Shown in pieces: positions 2,095-19,650 of a stretch of 45,281 bases of DNA. This stretch comes from an uncultured bacterium (GTDB taxonomy: Bacteria > Myxococcota_A > UBA9160 > SMWR01). Positions within the stretch are counted from its first letter, which is position 1, and each line of letters begins with the position of its first letter. The notes under the pieces were generated by a model. It made no database searches. It saw only the letters and a list, made by a program, of their open reading frames with translations, and was not told the DNA's origin. Made by a program: the position numbers and the translations under genes. The stretch is from NCBI GenBank assembly GCA_937937315.1, contig CALDCK010000153.1:1-45281 (forward strand), read 5' to 3'.

Positions 2095-2955
2095 TCAGCC
2101 GAGCTCTCCGGCTGCCGGACTCTGGGGTCGCCGGCGGATCTGCGCGGCGACGCTCGGGCCACCGGACGCCTCCTCCAGCAGTCGCACCCCCGGCAGGGGG
2201 ACGGGTCGCATCAGGCCCTCGGCGACGTCGAAGCAGAGCTCCGGGTAGGACAGGGCGGCGCAGATGTGGAGGAAGAAGGCGTTCAGCATGGCCGAGGCCG
2301 TGGCGAGATTCGTGAACAGGATCTGCGGCACGGTGATGAGGGCCTCGGTGCAGGAGACGTCGTTCGGCAGGGCGTCGCGGGGTGATTCGATCTCGGGGTG
2401 GAAGGCGTCCAGGGGCGGGGTCTGATCCACGCCGCCGCGGCGGAGATGGATCTGGACGTTGCCGAAGGTGCCGCGCTGGACACGTCCGGACCCGTCCTCC
2501 CCTACGCCGTCGTTTCCTCCGGAGACGAGGCAGACGTCGCCCAGGCCGCGGCAGTGGTCGCTCACGAGCTTGCGGGTGGCGTGGTTGTCGACGCAGAGCA
2601 GCACCAAGTCGCCCTCGGCGACGATCCGCGCGAGGTTCTCGTCGGTCGCGTACTCCTCGACGGCCGCGATCGTGAGCGACTCCGCCTCCACGAGCGGAAG
2701 CAGGTCGTCGCGCACGACCGCAGCCTTGTTTCCACAGCGGGAGAAGAGCATGCGCTCGGCATTTCGCGGCTCGAACTCGTCACCGTCGATCAGGACGAGG
2801 CGGGTAGATTCGTCGATCGAGGCCAGGAAGGCCGTCAGGTATCGGGCGACGATGCTTCCGACACCGCCGAGGCCGATGAGCTTGATGCTGCGGGCGCGCT
2901 CGGGCTGCGGCACCAGCGCGACGCCGCGTCGCCGCCCGGACCGAGGCCCGCTCAC
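2095..2955 (-). CDS. ThiF/E1-like adenylyltransferase (module B E1)
   Basis: IKLIGLGGVGSIVARYL nucleotide-binding loop, LVLIDGDEFEPRNAERMLF, candidate catalytic Cys in DVSCTEAL. GTG start at 2955 overlaps the upstream JAB stop. Confidence 0.88.
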   Translation of the reverse strand: MSGPRSGRRRGVALVPQPERARSIKLIGLGGVGSIVARYLTAFLASIDESTRLVLIDGDEFEPRNAERMLFSRCGNKAAVVRDDLLPLVEAESLTIAAVEEYATDENLARIVAEGDLVLLCVDNHATRKLVSDHCRGLGDVCLVSGGNDGVGEDGSGRVQRGTFGNVQIHLRRGGVDQTPPLDAFHPEIESPRDALPNDVSCTEALITVPQILFTNLATASAMLNAFFLHICAALSYPELCFDVAEGLMRPVPLPGVRLLEEASGGPSVAAQIRRRPQSPAAGELG

Positions 2956-3676
2956 GATACGCTCCCGGAGTAGACGTAGGAGGCTTGCTCCTCGAGCGTG
3001 ACGCGGTCGATCCACTCCTGGGGGACGTTCCGCCTCCGCTTCCGGTAGTCGACGATCACGTCGCGAACGTCGAGATGGAAGCGCGTTCCGTCGACGACGG
3101 CCTCGACGTGGATCTCCGGCGGCTCCTTCTGGATGCGCCCGACCACGATGTGGAGCCCCGCCGCATGGGTCTCGTCGGCGACGTCGGTGCCCGAGGCGTA
3201 GGCCGCCATGTGCACGTGGCTGTGGACGTCGCCGAAGGGAATCCAGTCCACGGGGAGATCCGTGGGCGGCAGATAGTGGACCCCGATCGCGCTCCGGTAG
3301 CCGTCCCAGGCGCGGTAGACCGTCGCCGTCTGCTCCGGAACCACGAGGCGCACCCGCTCCGCGCGCCGATCCCATACGAGCATGGCGGCGGCTTCGGAGC
3401 CGTGGAGCTCGGCGATCCGATCGAAGAACCCCACCACCCGCTCGAAGAGCGAGCGCGGGATGGCGGGGAACCGGGGCGTGAGGAAGGGGGCCTGGGACGC
3501 CAGGGCGCTGGGCCCGCGCGCCGCCGGAACGCAGCTGCGGAAGAACTCGCCGTTGCGGCAGATGAACAGTCCCTCGCGGCCGACGAGGTAGAAGACGCGT
3601 TCTCCCTCGGGCCAGGGGATGTCCGGCGTGCTCTTGACCAGGACCGGCGTGGTCGGCCCGGTGGGGTTCTGGCTCA
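2952..3676 (-). CDS. JAB/MPN (JAMM) isopeptidase, PRTRC-A-like (module B)
   Basis: MSQNPTGP...GDVHSHVHMAAYASGTD matches HxH-x7-S-x2-D exactly. Start ATG overlaps the end of the upstream gene. Confidence 0.85.
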
Positions 3677-4576
3677 TTCGGCGCTCCTTTGCGGCTGGCT
3701 GTGGAGGATGATTCGCGCGAGGTCGTCGGCGCTCGAGGCTCTGCGTCGAGTGCGCCCCATGGCCGTGATGCGCGCGGTCGCCGAGCGCAGCGTGTGACCC
3801 GAGGGCAGCCACGGCACCTCGAGGGCGAAGAGCGGATCCTCGGCACTGGCCTTCTGCCAGGACTCCACGCTGGCGATGCGCGGATCGATTCCGGCCGCCA
3901 CGGTCTCCGTGAACCAGGAGTTGAGCTCGTGGTGCTCGGAGGAGAGGTTGAACCCGGTCTCCAACAAGTGATGGAGCAGCGCGCGGAGGCCCGCAGACAG
4001 CGAGCCGCCGAGGCTGCGCTGGCGCGCGTGCTCCGCGGGCGACAGGTGCTGGGTGCAGATCCACGACAGCGGGTTCTCGGAAGCATCGGGGAAGCGGCTG
4101 CAGTTGAGCAGGGCCGGGTAGAGGAGCGGAGTGTCGAGCCCTTCCCGGTCGAGGGGCTGGTTGCTGAAGAAGCACTCGTTGCGGTTGCCGAGCCGCGGCA
4201 GCCCGCCGCGCGTGCGTTCGAAGACCGCCAGCACGATCAGGTAGGGGAGCGCGAGCCGCACGTTGCGGTAGGCGGTGCCCGGGCCGAAGGTGGCCTTCGA
4301 CTCCTGAGCGATCCAGCGGAAGCCGTAGACGCGCGGCGGGGTCTGGTGGACGATGATGTAGCCGCGCGGCGTGGGCAGCAGGCACTTCACCCCGTCCGGC
4401 AGCACGGCGTCGCGACTGTCGGGCAGGCCCGGATCCAGGCGTTCGAGCAGCTCCACCAGGGGCAGGCTGGCCGAAGCGCCCTCGGGCAGACGGGCGCGGG
4501 CCTCCTCGCCCTCGATCGTCACGGTTGCCGCTGCGGGTGCGGCGGTTCGGCGCTTGCGTGCGAGGCCCATCACCAT
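3674..4576 (-). CDS. Divergent prokaryotic E2-like protein (PRTRC-B / Prok-E2_D-like; module B)
   Basis: Sits between a Ubl and a JAB gene. RLALPYLIVLAVFE...LLYPALLNCSRFPDASENPLSWICTQHL resembles the E2 'PN...IC' core. The family call rests partly on synteny. Confidence 0.65.
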   Translation of the reverse strand: MVMGLARKRRTAAPAAATVTIEGEEARARLPEGASASLPLVELLERLDPGLPDSRDAVLPDGVKCLLPTPRGYIIVHQTPPRVYGFRWIAQESKATFGPGTAYRNVRLALPYLIVLAVFERTRGGLPRLGNRNECFFSNQPLDREGLDTPLLYPALLNCSRFPDASENPLSWICTQHLSPAEHARQRSLGGSLSAGLRALLHHLLETGFNLSSEHHELNSWFTETVAAGIDPRIASVESWQKASAEDPLFALEVPWLPSGHTLRSATARITAMGRTRRRASSADDLARIILHSQPQRSAE

Positions 4577-4948: not shown

Positions 4949-6715
4949 CTAGGACGCGCGCTCGAGCTCGATGGGCAGGACCGACGCCCGGGCGACGCGT
5001 CGCACGGTGCCGACGCGCACGGCGTCGGGGAGGGTCAGGTACTGCTCGCAGTTCCCCGGCGTGAGCTGGTCGACGATGTGTCGGACCTGGGCGTCGATCG
5101 CGCGCTGGAGCCGCTCGGTGGTCAGCCCGATCGGCTCACTGCCCCGCCACTCGTCGTCGCAGGCCTCGGCGGAGGCTTGCTGCACCGCGCGGTCGACGAG
5201 TCCCGCAGTCAGGAAGTCGCGGCGGTACTTCGTCACGGCGTTGGGCTGCCCGACGTAGTTGAGCTCGACCAGACCCTCGTCTCCCGAGTTGGGGGCGAAG
5301 AGCCAGGCGGTGAGGTCTACGATCGCGCTGCGCTGCGCGTTCGCGCTTCCCACGAAGGGGCGCCCGCGCAGGTGCTTCTCGATCACCGCCCGGAAGCCGA
5401 ACCGATCCATGCGTCCGAAGGTCGCGACGGTGCCGCCGGCGCGGCGCACGAAGGCCACGTCGAGGAGGCTCGGGACGTTGGTCGTGCAGATGACCACCAC
5501 GATGCGGTTCCGGAAGACGGGCTGGGCCGGATCGAGACCGGAGAGCAGCGTCGCCTGGATGCGGTCATGGAGCGTGTCCTGGCCGCGCTGCCGCGCCAGG
5601 GCGTCGATCTCCTCGCAGATGACGAGGCAGGGCAGCTCCCACACGGTTCCGTCCGGCGCGACGAAGGTCTCGCCAGCCACCTTCGACACCTCGTCGAAGA
5701 AGCGCGCCAGATTGCGCTCCGAGCTGCCGAGCCATTTGCTGAGCACCTCGGAGGCGCGGAGCCGCAGGACCCGCTGGGGCAGATCCTCGATCGCGGCCCC
5801 CGTGATCTCGCTCATGATCCGATAGAGGCGGTGCCACAGGGCGTTGATGCTGAGGGTCTTCCCCGTGCCGGGGACTCCGGTCGCGAGAAGCAGACTGGAG
5901 CGGCGGAGGCCATAGCGCCGACCGATCTCCGGATTCACGAGCTCGCGACGTACGTGGGTGGAGATGGTCTCGATGAACGCCGGGGGCGCACCGACGTCGC
6001 GCTCGACGATCACGTTTGGCACCGGCTCGGAGCAGAGGAAGCGCAGGTGGTTGGGGCCCTTCTCCTCGGGCAGGGCGCGCCAGGCGACGAGCCGGCGCGG
6101 GCAGACGACCACGGTGCAGCCCGGCTCGGCCTCCCCGCGCTCGATCTGCTCGTGGAGCTGCGCCGTCGCGCGGCAGACGATGCGACCGACCTCGCCCATG
6201 CTCACCTCGACGTCGCCGAGGGGAAGGCAGCGCTCGAGTCGTCCCTCCTCGCCGCGCATCGCCGGATCGGGCTGGTGGGAGAGGATCGCCCGCGCCTGGG
6301 AGTCCAGCCAGACGGCGTCGCCGCAGCGGAGCTCCTGGGCGAGCTTCGGATCCGTGACGCTGGCGAACGCGATGCCGCCGTCCGGAAGGATCAGCTGCGC
6401 GCGTCGGCCGAGGACCACGGACTCGATCATCCGGTCGAAGGTCCCGTAGCGAAGCGGTCCGTCCTGGATCTGCTGGATCACTTCCGCGAGCTCCTTCGTC
6501 TTCGAGACGTAGTGCTGGCCCGCACTCGCCAGGGTGGCGGCCTCGAGGACCGTCGCGACGACCGTCTCGCTGGTCTCGTCCTCCTCGTTGCAGACCTGGC
6601 GCAGGAGCTTCTTGCGGATCTTCATGGGCACCGTCGGATCGGTGAGCGCCTTGTCGAGGGTGTCCTTCTTGACCTGCGGTGCGTTGGGCATGGACATCGA
6701 TTCAGGCTCCTTCAT
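4949..6715 (-). CDS. AAA+ ATPase (proteasomal-ATPase/Cdc48-like unfoldase) with an N-terminal extension
   Basis: Walker A GVPGTGKT, Walker B LVICEEIDAL, sensor-1-like VVICTTN, VRRAGG. Upstream N-terminal region could be OB/beta-rich. Confidence 0.9.
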   Translation of the reverse strand: MKEPESMSMPNAPQVKKDTLDKALTDPTVPMKIRKKLLRQVCNEEDETSETVVATVLEAATLASAGQHYVSKTKELAEVIQQIQDGPLRYGTFDRMIESVVLGRRAQLILPDGGIAFASVTDPKLAQELRCGDAVWLDSQARAILSHQPDPAMRGEEGRLERCLPLGDVEVSMGEVGRIVCRATAQLHEQIERGEAEPGCTVVVCPRRLVAWRALPEEKGPNHLRFLCSEPVPNVIVERDVGAPPAFIETISTHVRRELVNPEIGRRYGLRRSSLLLATGVPGTGKTLSINALWHRLYRIMSEITGAAIEDLPQRVLRLRASEVLSKWLGSSERNLARFFDEVSKVAGETFVAPDGTVWELPCLVICEEIDALARQRGQDTLHDRIQATLLSGLDPAQPVFRNRIVVVICTTNVPSLLDVAFVRRAGGTVATFGRMDRFGFRAVIEKHLRGRPFVGSANAQRSAIVDLTAWLFAPNSGDEGLVELNYVGQPNAVTKYRRDFLTAGLVDRAVQQASAEACDDEWRGSEPIGLTTERLQRAIDAQVRHIVDQLTPGNCEQYLTLPDAVRVGTVRRVARASVLPIELERAS

Positions 6716-7856
6716 CGAGTAGTGAGTCTTCGAAATCGTCGATCACGTAGTAGCCACGACGCACGAGCATGCCGCCGCGCTGTCCGTAGAAGGCCTCGAC
6801 GGGGCGAGATCGCGCGTCGAGGCCGAATACCTGGGAGAGCTGCCAGGGCTCTCCGGGAAATACCGCGCGACACCAGGTGCGGTCGTCGCTGCTGAGGTGG
6901 GCCGTGGTGCGCGTGCACGACTCGACATAGTCACAGGCTGCGCAGGGCGTGGCGCCCTCGAGGGGAAGGAAGTTGTGACCGTGGTGTTGACCCTGGAGCC
7001 TGTGATGGCGCGAGGGGTTCTGTTTGCGACGAGCGCGCAGGATCGCCTGGATGCGCGCCCAGGTCGGACCCGAGTAGGTGAGGGAGTACTTCGTGGCCTC
7101 GGTCTCGGCCGCCTCGAGCACGTCCGTGACCACGGAGAAGATCTCGTCCGTGTCGGGACAGACGCAGAGCGGGCCCACGAACAGTCCCCCGGTCTCGACC
7201 GGCGGCTGTGCGTCGCCACCCCTGCGCGCGATGCGCTCGGCGCGATCGCGCGCCGAACGGGTGAAGAAGACGGGATGGTGTCCCTCGGTGGTCTCGCCGC
7301 CGGCCGGCGTGGCGCGATCGAGCAGCCGTGCGAGCGGTACGCGCAGGGCGCCCGGTGCGCCGCGGCCCGGGGGGCCTTCGATCGGAGCTCCCGGCTCGCC
7401 CTCGGCCCAGGGGTCGGCGCCCTCCGCCGGCCCGAGCCCGAAGTAGTAGAGCGAGCCGGCCTCCAGACGACCCTCGGCGATCAGACGCCGTGCGCCGCGC
7501 GACGCCACGTGTTCGAGGCTCTCGCGCGTGAAGAAGCCGGAGTGGACCTCGCCGCCGGGGTTGCGCGTCTCGAGGTCGAAGCCCTCCCAGATCCGCCCGA
7601 GCTCCGGGTCGTCCCGGTGGACGGGCTTCAGCAGGGCCCGCATCTGCTCCAGGCCGAAGCCGGAGAACCCGCGGCGGAGATGGCTGTCGAACCACAGCTC
7701 CGCGAGCGGGTCCACCAGGTCGCTGGGGGTCACCGGCTCGACCGCGACGGCCTCGCCGCCCCGCTCGAGATGCAGGTGCATCGCGAGCGGGGCGGCCTTC
7801 GCCGAGGGCGCGTCCCATCGCGCGGCCTCGGGCCCGATGGACGGGGCATCAGCCAA
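6702..7856 (-). CDS. JAB/MPN (JAMM)-like peptidase with Cys-rich insertion (module A)
   Basis: PPVETGGLFVGPLCV (JAMM Glu region), QGQHHGHNFLP, then insertion PCAACDYVESC, then HLSSDDRTWCRAVFPGEPWQLSQVFGLD. Start uncertain: TTG at 7856 overlapping the Ubl stop, or ATG at 7781. Confidence 0.75.
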   Translation of the reverse strand: MADAPSIGPEAARWDAPSAKAAPLAMHLHLERGGEAVAVEPVTPSDLVDPLAELWFDSHLRRGFSGFGLEQMRALLKPVHRDDPELGRIWEGFDLETRNPGGEVHSGFFTRESLEHVASRGARRLIAEGRLEAGSLYYFGLGPAEGADPWAEGEPGAPIEGPPGRGAPGALRVPLARLLDRATPAGGETTEGHHPVFFTRSARDRAERIARRGGDAQPPVETGGLFVGPLCVCPDTDEIFSVVTDVLEAAETEATKYSLTYSGPTWARIQAILRARRKQNPSRHHRLQGQHHGHNFLPLEGATPCAACDYVESCTRTTAHLSSDDRTWCRAVFPGEPWQLSQVFGLDARSRPVEAFYGQRGGMLVRRGYYVIDDFEDSLLDEGA

Positions 7857-8151
7857 GGAGACCGCCTCCGAGGTGGCTCTTGGGCGTGATGACGACCCGA
7901 GATCCGGGCGCGATCTGATCGCCGATCGCGCCTTCGTCGTCCAGGTAGGCGCTCGAACGATCATCGCGGAGAGACCAGGCGACGTCGGTGGGCAGCGCCA
8001 TGCGGTGCGCGATGGCGTCGGTGACCGATCGCACCGACAGCGAGGGTCCCACCTCGATCGGAATCTCCTGGCTTCCGGTCACGTTGACGGCGTGGACGAT
8101 CATGGCGTCGGGCACCCCCCCGCCACTCGGGCTCGAGACTTCGGTCTTCAT
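7849..8151 (-). CDS. Ubiquitin-like protein, C-terminus HLGGGLLG (module A)
   Basis: 100 aa MKTEVSSPSGGG...MIVHAVNVTGSQEIPIEVGPSLSVRSVTDAIAHRM...DEGAIGDQIAPGSRVVITPKSHLGGGLLG*. Beta-grasp-like pattern with a diglycine near the C-terminus. Confidence 0.8.
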   Translation of the reverse strand: MKTEVSSPSGGGVPDAMIVHAVNVTGSQEIPIEVGPSLSVRSVTDAIAHRMALPTDVAWSLRDDRSSAYLDDEGAIGDQIAPGSRVVITPKSHLGGGLLG

Positions 8152-8978
8152 TCGGGTCCTCCCTTGGTGCCGGACGGGATCGCGTCCCGCGCCGGCGGTT
8201 GATTCAACAGGCGACTCTCGACGCGCTCGTCGACGACTGCGGCGAGGGCCGGCAGGGCCCAGGCAGAAGCGGTCGTGAGCGCGGCGAGTCCGATCTCGAA
8301 GAGCTGCTGGGAGCAGCGCAGCGGAGCGCCGCTGAGGTCCACCTCGGCGCGCACGCCGTCGTCGTCGATTCCGAGCCGGACCAGGCGCCAGCGCGACTGG
8401 GCCTCGAGACACAGCTCCTGAATCCACGCGCGACGCGTCGCCGACAGCGTCTCGGGGATGCGCACGACGGCCGGAGCGGACAGGCCGAGGCGCGAGGCGC
8501 TTGCCGTCAGCTCGATGGGGACGACCTGCCCTCCGGCGCGGATATGGCGGCGCGTTGGCTCGACCCACGTCTCGACCTCGTCGCGCTCGACCCCGCCGGC
8601 CGACGGCGGCGGGGTCCCGTCGGAGGTCGCCCGCGCCCAGCCGAGGAGCTCCGCCATCGGATGCTCCTCGTCCGGCTCGCCCTCCCCCTCGAAGTTGGCG
8701 ACCCCCGGCGGGATCTCGAAGACGCAGGACCAGGCGCGCCGGCGACGCCGGGCCGTCCCGCGAGACAGCGGTGCGGGCACCGCGCGCCACAGTCCCGGCG
8801 CGCCCATCAGGTCCCGGAGCGGATCTCCGGTGAAGCGTGAGCGCCGGGTCAGGACGATCCAGCGCTGCTCCTCGGACACGGCGATTCCCGAGCGGCCGCG
8901 CCCCCGCGCGGCGGGCTCGAAGCCGAGGTTATCGGCGAGCTGGGACCAGGACGTCGAGGGGCAGGGCTGAGCGCTCAA
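8148..8978 (-). CDS. Uncharacterised protein embedded between E2 and Ubl of module A
   Basis: 276 aa; TTG start with upstream GAGGAGAA overlapping the E2 stop (TTGA). MSAQPCPSTSWSQLADNLGF...PPARDAIPSGTKGGPE; no family recognised. Confidence 0.75.
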   Translation of the reverse strand: MSAQPCPSTSWSQLADNLGFEPAARGRGRSGIAVSEEQRWIVLTRRSRFTGDPLRDLMGAPGLWRAVPAPLSRGTARRRRRAWSCVFEIPPGVANFEGEGEPDEEHPMAELLGWARATSDGTPPPSAGGVERDEVETWVEPTRRHIRAGGQVVPIELTASASRLGLSAPAVVRIPETLSATRRAWIQELCLEAQSRWRLVRLGIDDDGVRAEVDLSGAPLRCSQQLFEIGLAALTTASAWALPALAAVVDERVESRLLNQPPARDAIPSGTKGGPE

Positions 8979-9637
8979 GACGATTCTCCTCTGGCGCAGT
9001 CGCGCTTCGCATCCGCGGTCAGCGGCGCGAGGAAGGGGACACGGGAGAGGGGGATGCGGTGGAGATTCTGCTGCCACCAGTCCGCGGCCTCGGCGTTCAT
9101 GAGTCCGGCGGGATCCCGGGTGTCCAAGGTGACCGATTGCATCGTCATCGCCCCGTAGCTCGCGAGGACCGCCTCCCTCAGGGGATAGGACCTCGGCACG
9201 TTGGCGCCGAGGCAGAGCCGCTGAGACGGGCCGCTCGACACGTTGGCGTGGTGCACGTGGAAGGGCTTCAGGATCGCGACCAGCGCGTACCCGGGCAGTG
9301 GGCCGCGCAGGATCTCCTCCGGCAGATGGAGGGCCAGCTCCACCTCGTCTTCGACGACCAGGTCGGTGGCGCCGGGAGGCAGGCAGGGGACCGCGCAGCG
9401 CAGGCGAACGATCGCTCGCAGCTCGGTGCTCGGATCGATCGCGATCACCTCCATGCGTTCGCTGATCTGCTCGAGGGCGAAGAGGTCCCGAACCGTGGAG
9501 AGCTTGCAGTGGCGCCAGGCGCCCTCTCCGAGGGTCACCTCGCGCGCGCGGCGCAGGGCCTCTTCGTGCTCGGGGCGCAGCGGGACCCGGGGCAGATCGG
9601 AGAGGCCGAAGCCCTGGAGCGCGGGAGTGGACGTCAT
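8975..9637 (-). CDS. E2/UBC-like conjugating enzyme (module A)
   Basis: 220 aa; EDEVELALHLPEEILRGPLPGYALVAILKPFHVHHANVSSGPSQRLCLGANVPRSYPLREAV resembles the E2 'HPN...xCL' active-site block. Confidence 0.82.
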   Translation of the reverse strand: MTSTPALQGFGLSDLPRVPLRPEHEEALRRAREVTLGEGAWRHCKLSTVRDLFALEQISERMEVIAIDPSTELRAIVRLRCAVPCLPPGATDLVVEDEVELALHLPEEILRGPLPGYALVAILKPFHVHHANVSSGPSQRLCLGANVPRSYPLREAVLASYGAMTMQSVTLDTRDPAGLMNAEAADWWQQNLHRIPLSRVPFLAPLTADAKRDCARGESS

Positions 9638-10909: not shown

Positions 10910-11527
10910 CTACTCCGGCGTGTAGACGAAGCCCGTCGTCATCGAGACGGGCCTGGCACAGTCGGGACAGGTTCCCAGGCTGGAGCACTGGAGGAGGTCG
11001 CGATCGGGCTTCGTGCCCTGCTCCTCGGCGTGCAGCACCGCGTTGCACTCGCACACGAATACCCGGGTGTCCGCGTCGAAGGAGACGCTGCACACGGGGC
11101 AGCGCCGTCCGCGATGCTCCGGCGTCGGCGGTCCCACGTAGGGCTTGCGGAAGCGGGTGACGTGGAGGACCGCGTCGCGCAGCTGCACCTGGTCGGCGAC
11201 GTCGAGGATCGCGAGGCGCGGAGTCGGCCGACCGTTGACCCGGACCTCGAGCCCCGGGGGTACGGCCATCACCAGCGCGTCGCGGCCAGCGATCTGGATC
11301 GGCTCGAAGCGGAGCGCTTCGGGGGCGACCGCCGCATCGGGCTGCACCGGCTCGAGTCTCGGGCTTGTGTCGCCCACGTCGAGCTCGACGACGCCGGGCC
11401 CGCAGGGCAGCTCGGTCAGCGCACCCGCTCTGCGCCCGTCCGCTCCACCGTTGTCGAGGGCCTCGACGAGGAGGAAGAACGAAGCAACCTTCTCGGGGGT
11501 GATGGCGTTCTCGGTGGGGGGAGTCAT
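10910..11527 (-). CDS. RING-like zinc-binding protein with a possible FHA-like N-terminal beta domain (candidate E3)
   Basis: RRCPVCSVSFDADTRVFVCECNAVLHAEEQ...LLQCSSLGTCPDCARPV gives a RING/treble-clef-like Cys/His spacing. N-terminal region GLEVRVNGRPTPRLAILDVADQVQLRDAVLHVT is FHA-like. Confidence 0.72.
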   Translation of the reverse strand: MTPPTENAITPEKVASFFLLVEALDNGGADGRRAGALTELPCGPGVVELDVGDTSPRLEPVQPDAAVAPEALRFEPIQIAGRDALVMAVPPGLEVRVNGRPTPRLAILDVADQVQLRDAVLHVTRFRKPYVGPPTPEHRGRRCPVCSVSFDADTRVFVCECNAVLHAEEQGTKPDRDLLQCSSLGTCPDCARPVSMTTGFVYTPE

Positions 11528-11662: not shown

Positions 11663-12088
11663 TCAGTTCCAGGTGGGGTCGTCTCGCGGGTCGACGATCT
11701 CGATCTTGCAGTCCGCGAGCCGGTAGCCGACACCCTGCTCGGTCAGGATGATCTCCGGAACCGGAAGATCGTCGGCGAGGGCGTTCACCGCCTTGCGAAC
11801 CGCGCGCCGGAACAAGTGGATGTACTCGCGAATCCCGAACTCCGAGAACTCACGGAGGCCCTTGATCTTCGCGTACGCGTCCGCGAGCTCGCCGACCGTG
11901 CGATAGCCGCCGACCGGGCCCGTCTCGGACTCTCGCGCTTCGGCGAGGATGCGGAGCACGATCATGGGTCCGCGTCGAATGCGAACTTCGAGGTGCCGTC
12001 CGTCCGCGAGGGTGATGAGGATGGGGATCTTGCGCGCGGGTCGATGCAGCCAGTAGATCACGTGGGTCGTGCTGTGAGGGGTGTTCAT
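11663..12088 (-). CDS. Small winged-helix protein, OmpR/PhoB C-terminal-like, probable regulator without receiver domain
   Basis: 141 aa; GIREYIHLFRRAVRKAVNALADDLPVPEIILTEQGVGYRLADCKIEIVD carries the 'GxGYRL' winged-helix signature. Confidence 0.65.
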   Translation of the reverse strand: MNTPHSTTHVIYWLHRPARKIPILITLADGRHLEVRIRRGPMIVLRILAEARESETGPVGGYRTVGELADAYAKIKGLREFSEFGIREYIHLFRRAVRKAVNALADDLPVPEIILTEQGVGYRLADCKIEIVDPRDDPTWN

Positions 12089-12533: not shown

Positions 12534-13667
12534 GTGACGACCTCGAAGCCTGCGTCCCACGGTCACATCGAATTTCGCCTGGGTCGGGTGCTCGGCGAGC
12601 GCGTGAAGAGCGAGGGGAGCTACGCAGCGCTCGCGCGGGCGATCACCCGTGCAAGCCGCGGGGAGCGGGCGCCCAAGGAGGGCGAGCCGGCCGATCTGAT
12701 CGACCGGCGGAAGCTGCATAGCCTGGTGACGTCCGGGAAGGGTGCGGTCCTGACGATCGAAGACCTCCACGCCCTCGACCGTTATCTCGAGCGCTACGGG
12801 GAAGGTCTCGCCTATCGGCCTCTCCTTCAGAGGCCCGACCTGATGGAGGCGCTGGCGGATGGAGGGCGGGTCACGTTCCTGCTCGGATCGAAGCCCGAGC
12901 TGGAGCGCGGAAGCGTCTCACACTGGGATGTGTTGGCGATGGCGGAGATCCAGCGCGCCGTTGGACGCTCGGAGGTGAGCGTGCGCTTCGACATCGAGAC
13001 CGTTCCACTGCTCAGTGGGCTGACCGAGACCCAGGACGCGCTGGAGGGGCACGCGGCGTCGAACTACCTCGAAGAAAGCGGACCGTCCCTCGTCTGTCTG
13101 GGCTCGTCCCGCAGCAATCCCCTCGCCGAGCTGATGCTCGCTCGCATGTTCGACTACCCCGGCTTTGCGACGGCGTCCCTCGCGGACCGGGAGAACCTCC
13201 CCTTTGGCTTCGTGTGGAACCCGTCGTTCTCCGACGTGTTCCCCAGCTACTTCCACTTTCCCCCCGACGAGATCGTTGCCGGCAACGCACGCGCCGCCGA
13301 CGAGATTCGGGGGGGCAAGGCGTCGGCGCTCTGGACGCCGGAGAAGGTCTATCTGGACCAGGTGACACCGCGGCAGTGGGGCGAGACCTTCGGGCTGTGC
13401 CTGGCGCAGCGTCGCCGGGGCGGACGGGTCTGGCTGCTCCTGCTCGGCATCACCGGCGCCGCGACCTTCGTGGCGGCGAAGCTCGCCAATCGCCTGGCGA
13501 CACGACTCCACGATTCGACCGATGAGAGCCGTCCCTCCCAGGTGTACTGGGGGATCGTGCGGGCGAGCGTCGCGGAAGAGCTGAAGGCGAACTTCTTCAA
13601 CCTGCGTCAGTTCGAGGGCGAGGAGATCGCTACCCAGGAGCCGATCTCGGTGCCGGGCTCGGACTGA
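12534..13667 (+). CDS. HTH-containing protein with C-terminal Rossmann-like predicted sensor/effector domain
   Basis: 377 aa; GTG start preceded by AGGAGG. Helical N-terminal region SYAALARAITRAS...DRRKLHSLVTSGKGAVLTIEDLHALDRYL, then RVTFLLGSKPE and SLVCLGSSRSNPLAELMLARMF. Confidence 0.6.
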   Translation: MTTSKPASHGHIEFRLGRVLGERVKSEGSYAALARAITRASRGERAPKEGEPADLIDRRKLHSLVTSGKGAVLTIEDLHALDRYLERYGEGLAYRPLLQRPDLMEALADGGRVTFLLGSKPELERGSVSHWDVLAMAEIQRAVGRSEVSVRFDIETVPLLSGLTETQDALEGHAASNYLEESGPSLVCLGSSRSNPLAELMLARMFDYPGFATASLADRENLPFGFVWNPSFSDVFPSYFHFPPDEIVAGNARAADEIRGGKASALWTPEKVYLDQVTPRQWGETFGLCLAQRRRGGRVWLLLLGITGAATFVAAKLANRLATRLHDSTDESRPSQVYWGIVRASVAEELKANFFNLRQFEGEEIATQEPISVPGSD

Positions 13668-13673
13668 GGCGCT

Positions 13674-15926
13674 CTAGGTCGATGCCCGTCGGCGACGGCG
13701 GTCGAGGCGTAGCGCGAGGCCGGCGATCCCGGCCACGGCCAGGGCGAGCCATGTGAGGTGAGCGCCGGAGGACGCGGGCACCTGGGGCGGGCCTACGCAG
13801 ACTCCGGCGTCGCAGCTGCCTCCCGGGCAGTCTCCGTCTCCCAGACACTCGGTGCACGAAGTGAGGGGGTCGTCGCAGAAGGGAGTGGGGGCGCTGCAGA
13901 CCGGCGGTGCGCCAGCGTCGCAGGTCCCGCCGCTGCAGATCTCGTCGCCGTTGCAGAAGAGGGCATCGTCGCAGTGGGCGTCGGCGAGGCACTCGGTGCA
14001 CGCCGCGAGGGAGTCGTCGCAGAAGGGGGTGGGGCCGCTGCAGACGGGCGGCGTACCGGGGCCGCATGCTCCGGCCGTGCAGATCTCGGGTCCGTTGCAG
14101 AAGAGGGCGTCGTCGCAGTCCGCATCGATCAGGCACTCGGGCACTGGCATCGCGGTGGCTGCTGCCAACGCTTCGGCAATACCGGCGCCCGAGTTCCGAT
14201 CGATGCCGCCCGCCTCGATGTCGAGGGCCGTCGACGTGAGTGCGGTGCGCACGTCGTCGGGGCTGGCTACGCCGGGACCGCCTCCGCGTTCGAGGAGCAG
14301 CGCAGCGATCGCCGCGGCGTGGGGAGCGGCGGCAGAGGTTCCGCAGAAGGTGGAGAAGCCGGGAGACGCGGTGGAGACGCAGTCGGCGGCGGTGAGGTCC
14401 GGCTTCTGCCGAAGCTCGCCACCGCTGCTCGAGAAGTCGCCGGGGGTGATGGCGGTGCCGTTGGCCTCGAAGAAGATGCGCCGGGGCCCGTCGGAGCTGT
14501 AGCTCTCCACGGGCTCCGTGCCGGTGAAGCCGCTCGTCTTGCCCTGGGCGGTCGTGGCTGCGACCCCCATCGCTCCCCGGGCCGTGGGGTGCCCCGAGGT
14601 CTGCCCCGCCGTGACGTGTTCGAGATCGCCCCGGTTCGCGTTCAGGTGGAGATAGCGACCCTCGCTGCCGTTCTTGCCCACGATGATCAGCTGACGGCCG
14701 CTGTCGTTCGGGGCGGCGCCGATGATCTCGAAGGGATCCCCGGATCCCGACTGGATGTCCGTCGAGGCGCCGAAGAGGACGTTGCCCGGCTTGTTCGTGA
14801 GGAAGAGGTCGTAGTCGTTGCCCGATCCGCCGAGCGGGTCGGACCAGTGGAGGGTGTACACGAAGGGCGAGCCGTCCGTGATCTCGTTCGTGATGTCGTT
14901 GCCGCCGTAGCTGTGGGCGGGACTGCCGTTGAAGGTGCGGCCGGCGGCGAAGTCGCCCTCCCAGACTCCGGCCGTACCGTCGTCGAGGTTCCCCCCGTTC
15001 CCGGCCGCGGAGAAGTAGAGCGCCCCATCGGCGACGACCTGGTCCACCGCGGCCGCGACGTCGTCGTCCTGTAAGGCGGCCTCGGCGAAGTAGCCCACAT
15101 CGTCGACGATGATGTCGGCACCGGCGTTGCGCAGCGCCACGATGTTGTTCGCGAAGGAGGCCTGGCCGCTGAAGGCGGTGGCGAAGAGGAGGCTGGCGCC
15201 GGGTGCGAGGTCGTGCACGATCTCGAGCATCGCCGAACCCTCGTTGCCCGATCCGGCCTGCCCGGGCAGGACGACCACGCCCGAGGGCAGGTCGCCCGAT
15301 GACACGAGGGAGGCGAGGGCATCGACGCCGTCCGAGAGGACGCCGACGCTGACACCGCTTCCGTCCACCCCGAGGCTCGAGCGCGCGTCGTCGGCGTAGT
15401 GGGCTCCGTCCCCTTCGGAGGTGTCGATCTTCCGGGTGAAGGCGCGGTCGGCGGGATGGATGGCGTGGACGTCCGGATGCGCCGCCAGATCCTCTGTCCG
15501 ATCGAGGGGAAGCAGGATCCGGAGCGCGCCGAGCGCGGGGACCTTCCAGCGGACGTTCCCCCCGAGCGCTTCGATCTCGGCGAGCAGCGCGTCGCTCACG
15601 TCTGCGCGCAGGTCGAGGAGCAGGCGTCCATCGGCGTCGAGCTCGATGCCGGTGCGAAGGTTGGCGATGCCCTGCGCGATCGGCAGGCCGCGCCGCATCC
15701 GGGACTCGTACACGAGCCGGGACGAGAGCTTTCGCTGGGCCGGCGTGCGCGTCCTCTTCTCCGCGAGGAGGGCCTCGATCTGTCGGGTCAGCTCCGGGTG
15801 CGGGGGCGCACCCTGGGCGCCGGCCGGGGCGGCTCCCCCCAGGGCGATCCACAGCGCGACGGCGAGGGCGGCCGGCAGGCAGCGCGTCAGGAACGGCTTT
15901 GCGGGCATTCGGGGCATCGCGATCAT
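13674..15926 (-). CDS. Secreted subtilisin-like (S8) serine protease with Cys-rich repeats and a C-terminal TM/Arg tail
   Basis: GVSVGVLSDGVDAL (Asp region), STFCGTSAAAPHAAAIAALLLERGG (Ser motif), CDDALFCNG repeats, C-terminus VPASSGAHLTWLALAVAGIAGLALRLDRRRRRAST. Start chosen at MIAMPRMPAKPF signal peptide; the open frame extends to 16064. Confidence 0.85.
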   Translation of the reverse strand: MIAMPRMPAKPFLTRCLPAALAVALWIALGGAAPAGAQGAPPHPELTRQIEALLAEKRTRTPAQRKLSSRLVYESRMRRGLPIAQGIANLRTGIELDADGRLLLDLRADVSDALLAEIEALGGNVRWKVPALGALRILLPLDRTEDLAAHPDVHAIHPADRAFTRKIDTSEGDGAHYADDARSSLGVDGSGVSVGVLSDGVDALASLVSSGDLPSGVVVLPGQAGSGNEGSAMLEIVHDLAPGASLLFATAFSGQASFANNIVALRNAGADIIVDDVGYFAEAALQDDDVAAAVDQVVADGALYFSAAGNGGNLDDGTAGVWEGDFAAGRTFNGSPAHSYGGNDITNEITDGSPFVYTLHWSDPLGGSGNDYDLFLTNKPGNVLFGASTDIQSGSGDPFEIIGAAPNDSGRQLIIVGKNGSEGRYLHLNANRGDLEHVTAGQTSGHPTARGAMGVAATTAQGKTSGFTGTEPVESYSSDGPRRIFFEANGTAITPGDFSSSGGELRQKPDLTAADCVSTASPGFSTFCGTSAAAPHAAAIAALLLERGGGPGVASPDDVRTALTSTALDIEAGGIDRNSGAGIAEALAAATAMPVPECLIDADCDDALFCNGPEICTAGACGPGTPPVCSGPTPFCDDSLAACTECLADAHCDDALFCNGDEICSGGTCDAGAPPVCSAPTPFCDDPLTSCTECLGDGDCPGGSCDAGVCVGPPQVPASSGAHLTWLALAVAGIAGLALRLDRRRRRAST
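13847..14134 (-). repeat. Tandem intragenic repeat of about 144 bp encoding a CDDALFCNGxExC...TPFCDDxLxxCTEC module (two copies)
   Basis: actcggtgca recurs at 13847 and 13991 (period 144). Protein: DADCDDALFCNGPEICTAGACGPGTPPVCSGPTPFCDDSLAACTECL / ADAHCDDALFCNGDEICSGGTCDAGAPPVCSAPTPFCDDPLTSCTECL. Confidence 0.8.
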
Positions 15927-16060
15927 CTGATCTTCGAGAGGTTCGGGATGAGGAGCTGTGGGAAGTGCGGGCTGCGTCTCGAACGCCTCTTGTCGGTCGG
16001 ACGGATCCTCGACTCGAGCGCCCGCAGCATACCGGACGGGGCTGGGGGCCGGCGTCGGAT

Positions 16061-18046
16061 TCACTCGGTCAAGAAGATCGGGCTCGTCCAGCCGGTGCCG
16101 TCGTCCTCCTGGACGGCGCGGACGTAGAGGGACTCGCCGGGTCGCAGCCCATCGATCTCGCGGTGGAGTGTGACCTCGAGCCGGCCTTCGGTGAGGACGC
16201 CGTCGACCACCGCGCCGGATCGGATCAGCTCGATTCGGTGGAGGGGCTCCTGGGCGATCACCTGCACGAAGAGCGGACCGGCGAGCTCGCCGTCTTTCCC
16301 CTCGGCGGCGACGGAGATCTCCGAGCCCATTCCGTGGCCGCCGAGCGCGAAGCGCATCAGCATGCGTGGGCCGTTGGTCGCGTAGACGCGGCGCGCGCGC
16401 AGCGCATCGAGCACGCCCTCACGGGTGCGCTCCTCCGAGAGGATCGCCGCAAGTCCGCCCTGGGGAGGATCCACCTGGTACGCGCCGGGATGTCCGTCGT
16501 GGCGGTCGCCGCTCCCGATGAATCCCAGCCGATAGCCCCGACCCAGGACGTCGCGCACGAAGTGATCGGGTACGGGATCGTAGATCGGGTTGGGCGAATC
16601 GGCGGCCTCGCTGCTGCCGTGGATCGAGACGATCTCGGTGATCGGCTCGAAGTGGGGATCCGGGGGGACCTCCCAGTTCGTTGCGATCGGTCCGCCGGCG
16701 GAGTGATGGGCGAAGGTGAGTGCGGACTGGCCTTCGAGGGCCGACCAGAGCGCCTGGGGCGAGTCCGTCTCGGGAGCCACGGAATCTACGAGAGGACCCT
16801 CGTCGCCGAAGTAGAGTACGTGGCGGTGGCCGTGAATCCAGCTCGTCCACTCGAAGCCGAGGAGTGTCACGAAGCGGCCCGGCTCGTGGAAGGCGCGCGT
16901 CTGCTCCTGGATGCCCTGCCACAGGGCAGGGTGATCGACGAGAGGGAGGATGCCCCAGTGGTCGTGGTCCGTGAGGGCCGCGACGTCGAGGCCCGAGACG
17001 TCCCGCGCGTAGACGAAGTAGTCCTCGGGAACCCCGGTCCCGTCCGAGTAGTTACTGTGGCCGTGAAGGTCGCCCCAGAGCACGCGCGGTCCCTCGGCGC
17101 TGACGACCATCGGGTTGCTTTGCACCTCCCGTCCGCTCGCTCGCGCCACCAGGCGGTAGGTGCCGGCCTTCTCGGCGACGCCATGGACGCGCTGACGTCC
17201 CCCGTCTTCGGGCGCGAAGTGCACGCTGTCGGGGAGCCCGAGCTCCGGCGGGGCCTCCAGCTCGACGTCGGCCTCGATCTCGAGGCCGGTGTTCCGCCAG
17301 GCGTCGATGACGGCGAGAGTCACGGCGAAGCGCTCGCCGGGTCGGACGAGGGTCGGCACCTGGATCACCAGCCCCGCCGCCGGTCCGGGCCTGACGTCGA
17401 TCGTCGGTGAATCCACGAGGAAGCGCCGCGTTCCATCGCCGTCTCCGTCCACTGCGATCCAGAAGGCCGAGTCGCGCTCCGCGTAGCGGTCGGGCATCGC
17501 ACCGGCCATACCGGCGCCGTAGACGATCCGGATCCGATCCCCCTCGACGAGGGCGCGCCCCGTGACCTCGATGCCGAGGAGCTGACGGTCGAGGGTCTCG
17601 GCGTGGAGCTCGATCTCCGGACTCTCGGCGGTGACCTCGGTGTAGCCGCGCTGGTCCGGTCCCAGGACCTGCGGAGTGGTCCACTCCCAGAAGGGCGAGA
17701 CCTGGAAGTAGACCATGCCGCCCGGGGCGATGCCGTGGGGACCGACCTCGTAGAAGATCTCGAAGCGATCCGGGGTATTCGAGACGGCGTAGGGCTTCTG
17801 GTCGGGACCGCGCACGAGCCAGGCGCGCCCCCCGCCATCGGAGACGTCGTAGTGCGCGGATGCGGATTCGCGTAGCGCGTCGACGGTCTCCCAGAGGGCG
17901 GTGGGAGGACCGTCCCGGACCGTTTCCGGTGCGGGGCGCTCGGCCCCGAGCTCTGCGGGGTCGGGAGGGCCGTCCTCGGCGCTCCCGCAGGCGAGGGCGA
18001 GGGCGAGGACCGGCGTCGCCAGCTGGCGGAGGGACGTCGACATCAT
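16061..18046 (-). CDS. Lipoprotein with PHP/DUF3604-like metal-dependent domain
   Basis: Lipobox LALACGS; VLWGDLHGHSNYSDGTGVPEDYFVYARDVSGLDVAALTDHDHWG, FIGSGDRHDGHPGAY. Confidence 0.8.
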   Translation of the reverse strand: MMSTSLRQLATPVLALALACGSAEDGPPDPAELGAERPAPETVRDGPPTALWETVDALRESASAHYDVSDGGGRAWLVRGPDQKPYAVSNTPDRFEIFYEVGPHGIAPGGMVYFQVSPFWEWTTPQVLGPDQRGYTEVTAESPEIELHAETLDRQLLGIEVTGRALVEGDRIRIVYGAGMAGAMPDRYAERDSAFWIAVDGDGDGTRRFLVDSPTIDVRPGPAAGLVIQVPTLVRPGERFAVTLAVIDAWRNTGLEIEADVELEAPPELGLPDSVHFAPEDGGRQRVHGVAEKAGTYRLVARASGREVQSNPMVVSAEGPRVLWGDLHGHSNYSDGTGVPEDYFVYARDVSGLDVAALTDHDHWGILPLVDHPALWQGIQEQTRAFHEPGRFVTLLGFEWTSWIHGHRHVLYFGDEGPLVDSVAPETDSPQALWSALEGQSALTFAHHSAGGPIATNWEVPPDPHFEPITEIVSIHGSSEAADSPNPIYDPVPDHFVRDVLGRGYRLGFIGSGDRHDGHPGAYQVDPPQGGLAAILSEERTREGVLDALRARRVYATNGPRMLMRFALGGHGMGSEISVAAEGKDGELAGPLFVQVIAQEPLHRIELIRSGAVVDGVLTEGRLEVTLHREIDGLRPGESLYVRAVQEDDGTGWTSPIFLTE

Positions 18047-18090
18047 GCGGCGCCGGGAGCATAGCTCGCGCCGCGCGCCGGGTTCCGGCT

Positions 18091-19650
18091 TCAGGGTCGG
18101 ATCGCGTGACGGTGCTCGCCGACGTGGCGGGCCAGCAGGGGCTGGATCCATTCGATCCATTCGCACAGGCTCGGCCGGGTCCGCCGTGGATCGATCAGAT
18201 CGTTCACCCCGAAGGACTCGGCCCGGGGAAAGGCGGAGCGGCCCCGGGAGAAGCGCTCCTCGAGCTCGCGGCGAAGCGCGTCCGGGTCTTCCGCGGCCTC
18301 GATCTCGCGTCGGAACGCCACGGCGACGCCTCCCTCGATGGGGAGCGCCCCGCCCTCCGCCGACGGCCAGGACAGCACGTGGGCGCCGGGCGCGAAGTGA
18401 CCCGCCGCGGCGACGCCGTAGGTCTTGCGCACGATGACCGAGGCCCAGGGCACACTGCTCTGTACGACGGCGAAGATCGCCTCGGTGCCGAAGCGGATGG
18501 TGGCGTCCTTCTCGGCCTCACTGCCGATCATGAAGCCCGGCTCGTCGACGAAGGCCACCACGGGCAGGTGGAAGGTGTCGCAGAGGTCGACGAAGCGGCG
18601 GACCTTCCGCGCGCCATCCGCCGTCATCGATCCCGCGTAGTAGCGCGGGTCGTTGGCCCAGATGCCGACGGGCTGTCCCGCGAGCCGGGCGAGGCCCGTG
18701 ATCTGGCTGCGCCCGTAGCCGGCGCCGAGCTCGAAGAAGGAGCCCGCATCGACGACGTGGTTCACGAGCTTCCGCGCGTCGTAGACCCGGCGCCGGTTGC
18801 GTGGAACGATCGAGAGCAGCGCCTCCTCGCAGCGCTCCGGGTCGTCGTCGCAGGACGTGCGCGGCGCGCCTTCCCACACGTTCGTCGGGAGGTAGGAGAG
18901 GAAGCGGCGGACCTGCGCCATCGCCTCCTCCTCGTCGGCCACGACGTTGTCCACGACGCCGCTCCGAGCGTGGATCTTCGCGCCGCCCAGCTGCTCCTTG
19001 GTGAGCTGCTCGCCGAGGGCCCGCTCGACCACCGCGGGGCCCGCCACCAGAACCTGGGAGGCGCCCCGCGTCATCAGGGAGAAGTGGGAGGCCACCAGCC
19101 TCGCCGCGGGAAGTCCTGCCACAGCTCCGAGTCCGGCAGAGACGACCGGCGCCGTCGCCATCGCATTGGCGATGGAAAGGAAGCGATGCGGGGCATTGAC
19201 CGGGCTGCCGGCGGTCACCTGGGCGCCCTTGCCGCTCGTGCCGGCGACGCTGCCGCCCCCACCCTGGAGGAGCCGGACCAGGGGCACCCGGTACTGCACC
19301 GCCATCTCCTCGGCAAAGACGCTCTTGCGCAGACCCGCCGGCGAAGGCGAGCCTCCCCGCTGGGTGAAGTCCTCGCCGCCAACGACGACCGGGCGGCCGT
19401 CGATCCTTCCCATGCCGAGCACGTAGTTCGCCGCGGTGAACGACTGGAGCGCTCCGTCGTCTCCGAGCTCGGCGTGTCCGGCGATCGGACCCTGCTCCGC
19501 GAAGCTCTCGCGGTCGAGCAGGGCGCCGACCCGCTCGCGGATCGTGAGGCGCCCCATCGCGTGCTGCTTCGCAACTGCCTCTTCTCCGCCCAGGTCCTGG
19601 GCGGCGCGGCGGCGCTGCTCGATTCCGTCGACCTCGGGCTTCCAGCTCAT
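18091..19650 (-). CDS. Acyl-CoA carboxylase beta subunit (carboxyltransferase)
   Basis: MGRLTIRERVGALLDRESFAE, VVVGGEDFTQRGGS, QGGGGSVAGTSGKGA, FGTEAIFAVVQSSVPWASVIVRKTYGVAAAGHF. Confidence 0.88.
   Translation of the reverse strand: MSWKPEVDGIEQRRRAAQDLGGEEAVAKQHAMGRLTIRERVGALLDRESFAEQGPIAGHAELGDDGALQSFTAANYVLGMGRIDGRPVVVGGEDFTQRGGSPSPAGLRKSVFAEEMAVQYRVPLVRLLQGGGGSVAGTSGKGAQVTAGSPVNAPHRFLSIANAMATAPVVSAGLGAVAGLPAARLVASHFSLMTRGASQVLVAGPAVVERALGEQLTKEQLGGAKIHARSGVVDNVVADEEEAMAQVRRFLSYLPTNVWEGAPRTSCDDDPERCEEALLSIVPRNRRRVYDARKLVNHVVDAGSFFELGAGYGRSQITGLARLAGQPVGIWANDPRYYAGSMTADGARKVRRFVDLCDTFHLPVVAFVDEPGFMIGSEAEKDATIRFGTEAIFAVVQSSVPWASVIVRKTYGVAAAGHFAPGAHVLSWPSAEGGALPIEGGVAVAFRREIEAAEDPDALRRELEERFSRGRSAFPRAESFGVNDLIDPRRTRPSLCEWIEWIQPLLARHVGEHRHAIRP

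Follow-up and report, generated by a model that had tools for sequence, protein, structure and literature searches.

Does a bacterium encode a RING-type ubiquitin ligase in the same operon as the enzymes that activate and conjugate a ubiquitin-like protein (Ubl)? The question is raised by a small zinc protein encoded in the window (the whole stretch of DNA analysed, 45,281 nucleotides), which an earlier note had placed at the head of an operon and read as a candidate bacterial E3. The open reading frame is real and had been correctly placed (Table 1); its ATG at 11527 has an AAAGAGG ribosome-binding site just 5′, as read in the sequence, and a gap of 4 nt separates its stop from the ATG of the E1-like gene E1a. 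It opens a run of genes, all on the minus strand, in the order RING-E1-E2-p4-Ubl-JAB-AAA(Mpa/ARC-like)-Ubl-E2-JAB-E1. Zinc-finger proteins of such operons have been proposed as E3-like adaptors (Iyer et al., 2006; PMC1779556), and Burroughs et al. (2011) are cited in PMC11354881 and PMC12687455 for the prediction that prokaryotes encode RING proteins close to E1/E2/Ubl genes.

Table 1. Features of the RING-headed operon in the window, with the basis of each assignment
Feature	Position	Strand	Basis and remarks
FHA-like/RING protein gene	10910..11527	(-)	205 aa; beta-sandwich ~15-127, RING ~139-195
First half of RING, C143..H166	11030..11101	(-)	CPVC-x12-CEC-x4-H; sequence read and alignments
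E1a, E1-like adenylating enzyme, 423 aa	9634..10905	(-)	PF00899 1.4e-20; ThiF domain and C-terminal Cys-rich region
E2a, E2-like enzyme, 220 aa	8975..9637	(-)	HHAN...LCLG catalytic motif
p4, possible TY-chaperone/YbjN-like peptide-binding protein	8148..8984, start approximate	(-)	TY-Chap1 0.0044, sub-threshold; conserved position
Ubl a, 100 aa	7849..8151	(-)	ends SHLGGGLLG; family end ...HLG or ..AG
JAB/JAMM peptidase a	6702..7781, start approximate	(-)	H-x-H...S-x-x-D; homologue in L011 matches Prok-JAB 3.4e-8
AAA+ unfoldase, Mpa/ARC-related	4949..6715	(-)	AAA 7.5e-19; pup_AAA 3.1e-23 over residues 59-556; PDB Mpa 8e-15
Ubl b, 113 aa	4570..4911	(-)	family end AGEKG, then variable tail
E2b, second E2-like protein, 300 aa	3674..4576	(-)	invariant WxC
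JAB b, second JAB-like protein	2952..3677	(-)	frame read; position conserved in L009, L010
E1b, second E1-like ThiF protein	2095..2988, start approximate	(-)	PF00899 1.2e-15

As a single query, the 205-aa protein returned nothing above cut-off in Pfam, NCBIfam, PADLOC or PDB, and a contig scan with this protein alone gave no homologue; profiles made from whole-genome homologues succeeded. Whole-genome protein and profile searches, together with a contig scan with E2b, recovered 19 homologues, each from a separate genome, in Deltaproteobacteria, Verrucomicrobia, Planctomycetota and Acidobacteria (Candidatus Sulfopaludibacter); the best single-sequence match was 1.5e-33, and the profiles performed far better. 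Two further candidates were rejected, namely L006 (antisense within a transposase-like frame) and L007 (internal stops in the matched stretch). When the homologues are aligned with the window protein, the zinc-ligand positions C143, C146, C161, H166, C181, C187, and C190 are invariant (20/20), the eighth proposed ligand, C159, is kept in 19 of the 20 members, and the C-terminal tail carries a conserved aromatic-x-x-P-E motif in which P204 is invariant. Because so many homologues were recovered and their ligand positions are conserved, the open reading frame is not a product of chance.

The ligands of the window protein are spaced CxxC-x12-CxC-x4-H-x14-C-x5-CxxC, and their order across the family is C4HC3-like (CxxC...CxC....H...C.....CxxC) rather than the classical C3HC4. 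The RING/treble-clef pattern that had been read from the letters is borne out by these eight conserved ligands, with the correction that CPVC and CEC are separated by 12 residues (SVSFDADTRVFV) and not by the nine originally counted. Taken alone, the window protein has only sub-threshold matches in Pfam (Prok-RING_1, 0.065; C1_2, 0.009), reaching 13.6 bits against a gathering cut-off of 29.1 bits for Prok-RING_1 (PF14446). Across the family, 11 of 20 members match Prok-RING_1 at E<=0.1 (best 1.7e-6), a profile-profile comparison by hhalign gives 96.8% between the RING family and one Prok-RING_1 protein, and the family HMM also retrieves Prok-RING_1-type domains in unrelated proteins from the genomes of the planctomycete search. 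Prok-RING_1 is reportedly linked to the prokaryotic RINGs that Burroughs, Iyer and Aravind described in 2011. The two families share the ligand arrangement CxxC...CxxC....H...C...C, but many members have a longer H-to-C6 insert, and the partner of the window RING is an FHA-like domain, not a membrane or protease domain. Prok-RING_1 is also borne by proteins without a ubiquitin context, for example serine-protease-like membrane proteins. A genome of the same phylum as the window (G131; loci L021, L029-L040) has 13 Prok-RING_1 matches, which lie outside the context considered here.

Profile searches of the PDB matched the E3 RINGs of EL5 (0.0016), Arkadia (0.003), and RNF126 (0.0096) and also PHD fingers (KMT2D, 6e-4), within an overall range of 6e-4 to 1e-2, and C1 domains were likewise matched by the family profile. 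An AlphaFold2 model of the RING alone (75 aa, 20 sequences) had a pLDDT of 86.5, and its best PDB matches in Foldseek were the RINGs of RNF12, RNF13, and RNF38, several of them solved with an E2, at a TM of about 0.5 and with weak E-values of about 0.1, which are perhaps to be expected because the query has 75 residues. Structure prediction, which had been proposed as a check, gives a fold matched best by E3 RINGs, and this counts against an unrelated zinc ribbon. On ligand conservation, Prok-RING_1 homology and modelled fold taken together, the C-terminal zinc domain is assigned as a true RING/treble-clef domain with C4HC3-like ligand order.

The genomic setting of the gene is equally constant. 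An E1 gene lies directly 3′ of the RING gene in all 20 loci (19 by BLAST or Pfam, and G353 by reading of an incomplete downstream frame), and the position at the head of the operon claimed for the window gene holds in every locus seen, where the RING gene is the first of the conjugation cassette. The window-type gene order recurs in G250 and in two Verrucomicrobia loci, and in Planctomycetota and Acidobacteria it is the same as far as the contigs extend. E2a alone has no Pfam match; in an alignment of its relatives from 16 loci the catalytic Cys in CxG is invariant and is accompanied by HPN or H-x-x-N-like and LNxxA-like motifs. In both Ubl families a single Gly is conserved near the end across homologues (HLG or AG in Ubl a, EKG in Ubl b) and is followed by variable residues, and this combination suggests that the mature Ubl would end in a single Gly and that the extra tail residues of both families would be removed by the JAB proteins. 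In JAB a of the window and its counterpart in L011 (9096-10184), the H-x-H and S-x-x-D motifs of the JAB/JAMM active site are separated by a Cys-rich insert. In one genome (G944, locus L119), the RING-E1 pair is present with a second RING-like fragment nearby (L119 11447-11665 and 13147-13779), and no recognisable E2, Ubl, JAB or AAA was found around the pair. No match to phage or plasmid carriage was obtained.

Upstream of the operon, a co-directional gene for a 141-aa protein of unassigned family (11663-12088, minus strand) lies 135 nt from the RING gene and has a weak match in L009, and a divergent gene for a 377-aa protein (12534-13667, plus strand) is conserved in L008, L009, and L123 (29-43%). 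Neither protein has a Pfam match, and both are possible regulators. Also upstream, by reading, are a subtilisin-like secreted protease with a Cys-rich C-terminus (13674-16064, minus strand) and a PHP/DUF3604-like protein (16061-18166, minus strand).

A second operon type (type 2), in which RING-E1-E2-Ubl-JAB-AAA is followed by two Pup-ligase-family genes, occurs in G210, G302, G828, G1033, G997, and G994 (loci L011 5265-16120 in G210, L020 5661-16192 in G302, L122, L125, L126, and L127), and here too the RING gene is the first of the cassette. The two Pup-ligase-family genes of G210 match Pfam Pup_ligase at 7e-93 and 1.5e-89; a Pup-like gene lies between them in G210, where its product ends in GGQ, and in G302, and one was picked up in G828 and G994 as well. 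The AAA protein of G994 bears proteasomal ATPase OB domains. In L011 (6240-7403) and L020 (6410-7492) the E1 looks circularly permuted, as a segment found 3′ of the ThiF core in L119, L120, L122, L125, and L127 precedes the core in these two. The AAA protein of the window operon is likewise closest in sequence to the proteasomal ATPase Mpa/ARC. Its C-terminus (...ELERAS) is without the GQYL tail found on the canonical Mpa of the host, and docking to the 20S proteasome is doubtful for this reason. That canonical Mpa is encoded elsewhere in the window's own genome (G000, contig C336, L070), together with a Dop/PafA-family gene and two proteasome subunit genes, and the host thus encodes a 20S proteasome and pupylation genes apart from the window operon. 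The canonical Pup-proteasome system (PMC2588565) has the Mpa/ARC-like ATPase in common with these operons, and Pup and Pup-ligase-family genes in common with type 2, but uses no E1, E2, RING or JAB.

The N-terminal part of the RING protein had been described as an FHA-like beta segment, from which phospho-dependent recognition was proposed. Foldseek with the full-length AlphaFold model (moderate overall, pLDDT 67, and 82-90 over residues 71-120) gave 354 PDB matches, and among the matches listed nearly all were FHA domains (best 3e-4). Profile searches also drew in ordinary FHA proteins through an NG...L..gDeI motif, and alignment of the family with such proteins indicates that the C-terminal half of the FHA fold is retained. 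The GR, SxxH, and SxN residues with which known FHA domains bind phosphothreonine are absent from all family members having the region, and Pfam FHA matches none of the 20 members, while the same test finds the control L047 at 1e-17 (L047 and L050, with FHA-only matches, are ordinary FHA proteins rather than homologues and served as controls). The FHA-like reading therefore survives with respect to the fold, but the domain is degenerate, and phospho-reading is unlikely because the binding residues are missing. CHFR and RNF8 are eukaryotic ligases that combine an FHA-type domain and a RING in one protein, as the bacterial family does, and a ligase of their kind, recognising phosphothreonine targets, would agree with the Foldseek result and with the cross-matches to true FHA proteins; the loss of the three binding elements and the negative Pfam test set the bacterial domain apart from theirs and leave this alternative very improbable. 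No evidence was found for common descent of the pair of domains with CHFR or RNF8.

Whether the RING would act as a ligase can be approached through the E1/E2/srfp(RING) cascade of Candidatus Caldiarchaeum subterraneum, where mutations show that the E2-contact hydrophobic I30 (its counterpart here, by inferred position, is V145) and the linchpin R69 matter and that W58 is also important (PMC5654768). This position (C1+2) is occupied by V, F, I or L in all 11 members of the window's subgroup, whereas the type 2 operon members and L079 have Arg, which is not hydrophobic. No conserved Arg/Lys linchpin follows C8: at C8+1 the window has A191, L079 has Lys, L078 has Arg and the rest have other residues, and for this reason ligase activity is argued mainly from context and fold. 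Some active RINGs are also without a linchpin Arg/Lys. The variable linchpin and the Arg of type 2 members would suit a non-catalytic, RING-like scaffold that docks E1 to E2, or that reads a Ubl or substrate peptide in the manner of PHD or C1 domains, with the E2 conjugating alone. The profile matches to PHD fingers and C1 domains and the direct adjacency of E1 even where no E2 was detected (L119) point the same way. This main alternative is nevertheless unlikely, although of some weight, since the model is matched best by E3 RINGs, several of which were solved together with an E2, and the hydrophobic residue is kept throughout the window's subgroup. Far less credible, and close to negligible, is a zinc ribbon of unrelated type, functionally unconnected to the adjacent genes; the sub-threshold single-sequence Pfam matches would be compatible with it, but the eight-ligand pattern, the Prok-RING_1 homology, the RING fold match and the operon position kept across phyla speak against it. 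Since the protein carries a true RING, always lies beside an E1 and normally belongs to an E1-E2-Ubl-JAB-AAA operon, the gene is best described, as originally proposed, as encoding a candidate bacterial E3.

The RING protein is thus probably the E3 of a bacterial system that conjugates ubiquitin-like proteins, with the following proposed route. E1a would activate Ubl a, E2a would take it over on its catalytic Cys, and the RING domain would dock on E2a~Ubl and promote transfer of Ubl a to a substrate; both the binding of E2 and the discharge of E2~Ubl by the RING protein are predicted from fold and context. The degenerate FHA-like domain may hold the substrate or scaffold the E1/E2 complex, without need for phosphothreonine. 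JAB a would trim the Ubl tail to the terminal Gly and would also take the tag off, and the Mpa/ARC-like AAA+ ring would unfold or remodel tagged proteins, possibly feeding the 20S proteasome of the host. A wider proposal, put forward tentatively, is a bacterial route from ubiquitin to an unfoldase. A RING E3 whose FHA fold has been repurposed would serve both of the Ubl cassettes that surround an Mpa/ARC-like AAA+ ring, and type 2 operons would merge ubiquitin-like tagging and pupylation into one pathway.

Among known systems, the Caldiarchaeum cascade likewise has an operon with a ubiquitin-like protein, E1, E2, and a small RING protein; the window differs in its two Ubl/E1/E2/JAB sets and Mpa-like AAA, and its RING family differs in having no conserved linchpin and an added FHA-like domain (PMC5654768). 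Similarly, Bil, Bub, and CBASS Cap2/Cap3 have E1, E2, protease, and, in Bil and Bub, Ubl in one operon, and the accessible portions of their descriptions give Ubl, E1, E2, and protease and name no RING or E3 (PMC12687455, PMC13373217, PMC10097602). The PADLOC models of Bil and CBASS matched the window operon only through ThiF and generic AAA domains, which both have. While a RING beside E1/E2/Ubl genes had already been predicted in prokaryotes, three features were not found in the literature searchable here and are apparently new: the fusion of an FHA-like domain to a RING, the presence of two Ubl cassettes around an Mpa-like AAA, and the combination of such genes with Pup genes. In at least four phyla, conserved operons begin with a RING gene and also encode a proteasome-type unfoldase, in hosts with a 20S proteasome of their own, and the type 2 operon puts ubiquitin-like tagging and pupylation into a single gene set. 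With such operons, a prokaryotic origin of RING E3s and of ubiquitin-guided unfolding can be tested directly.
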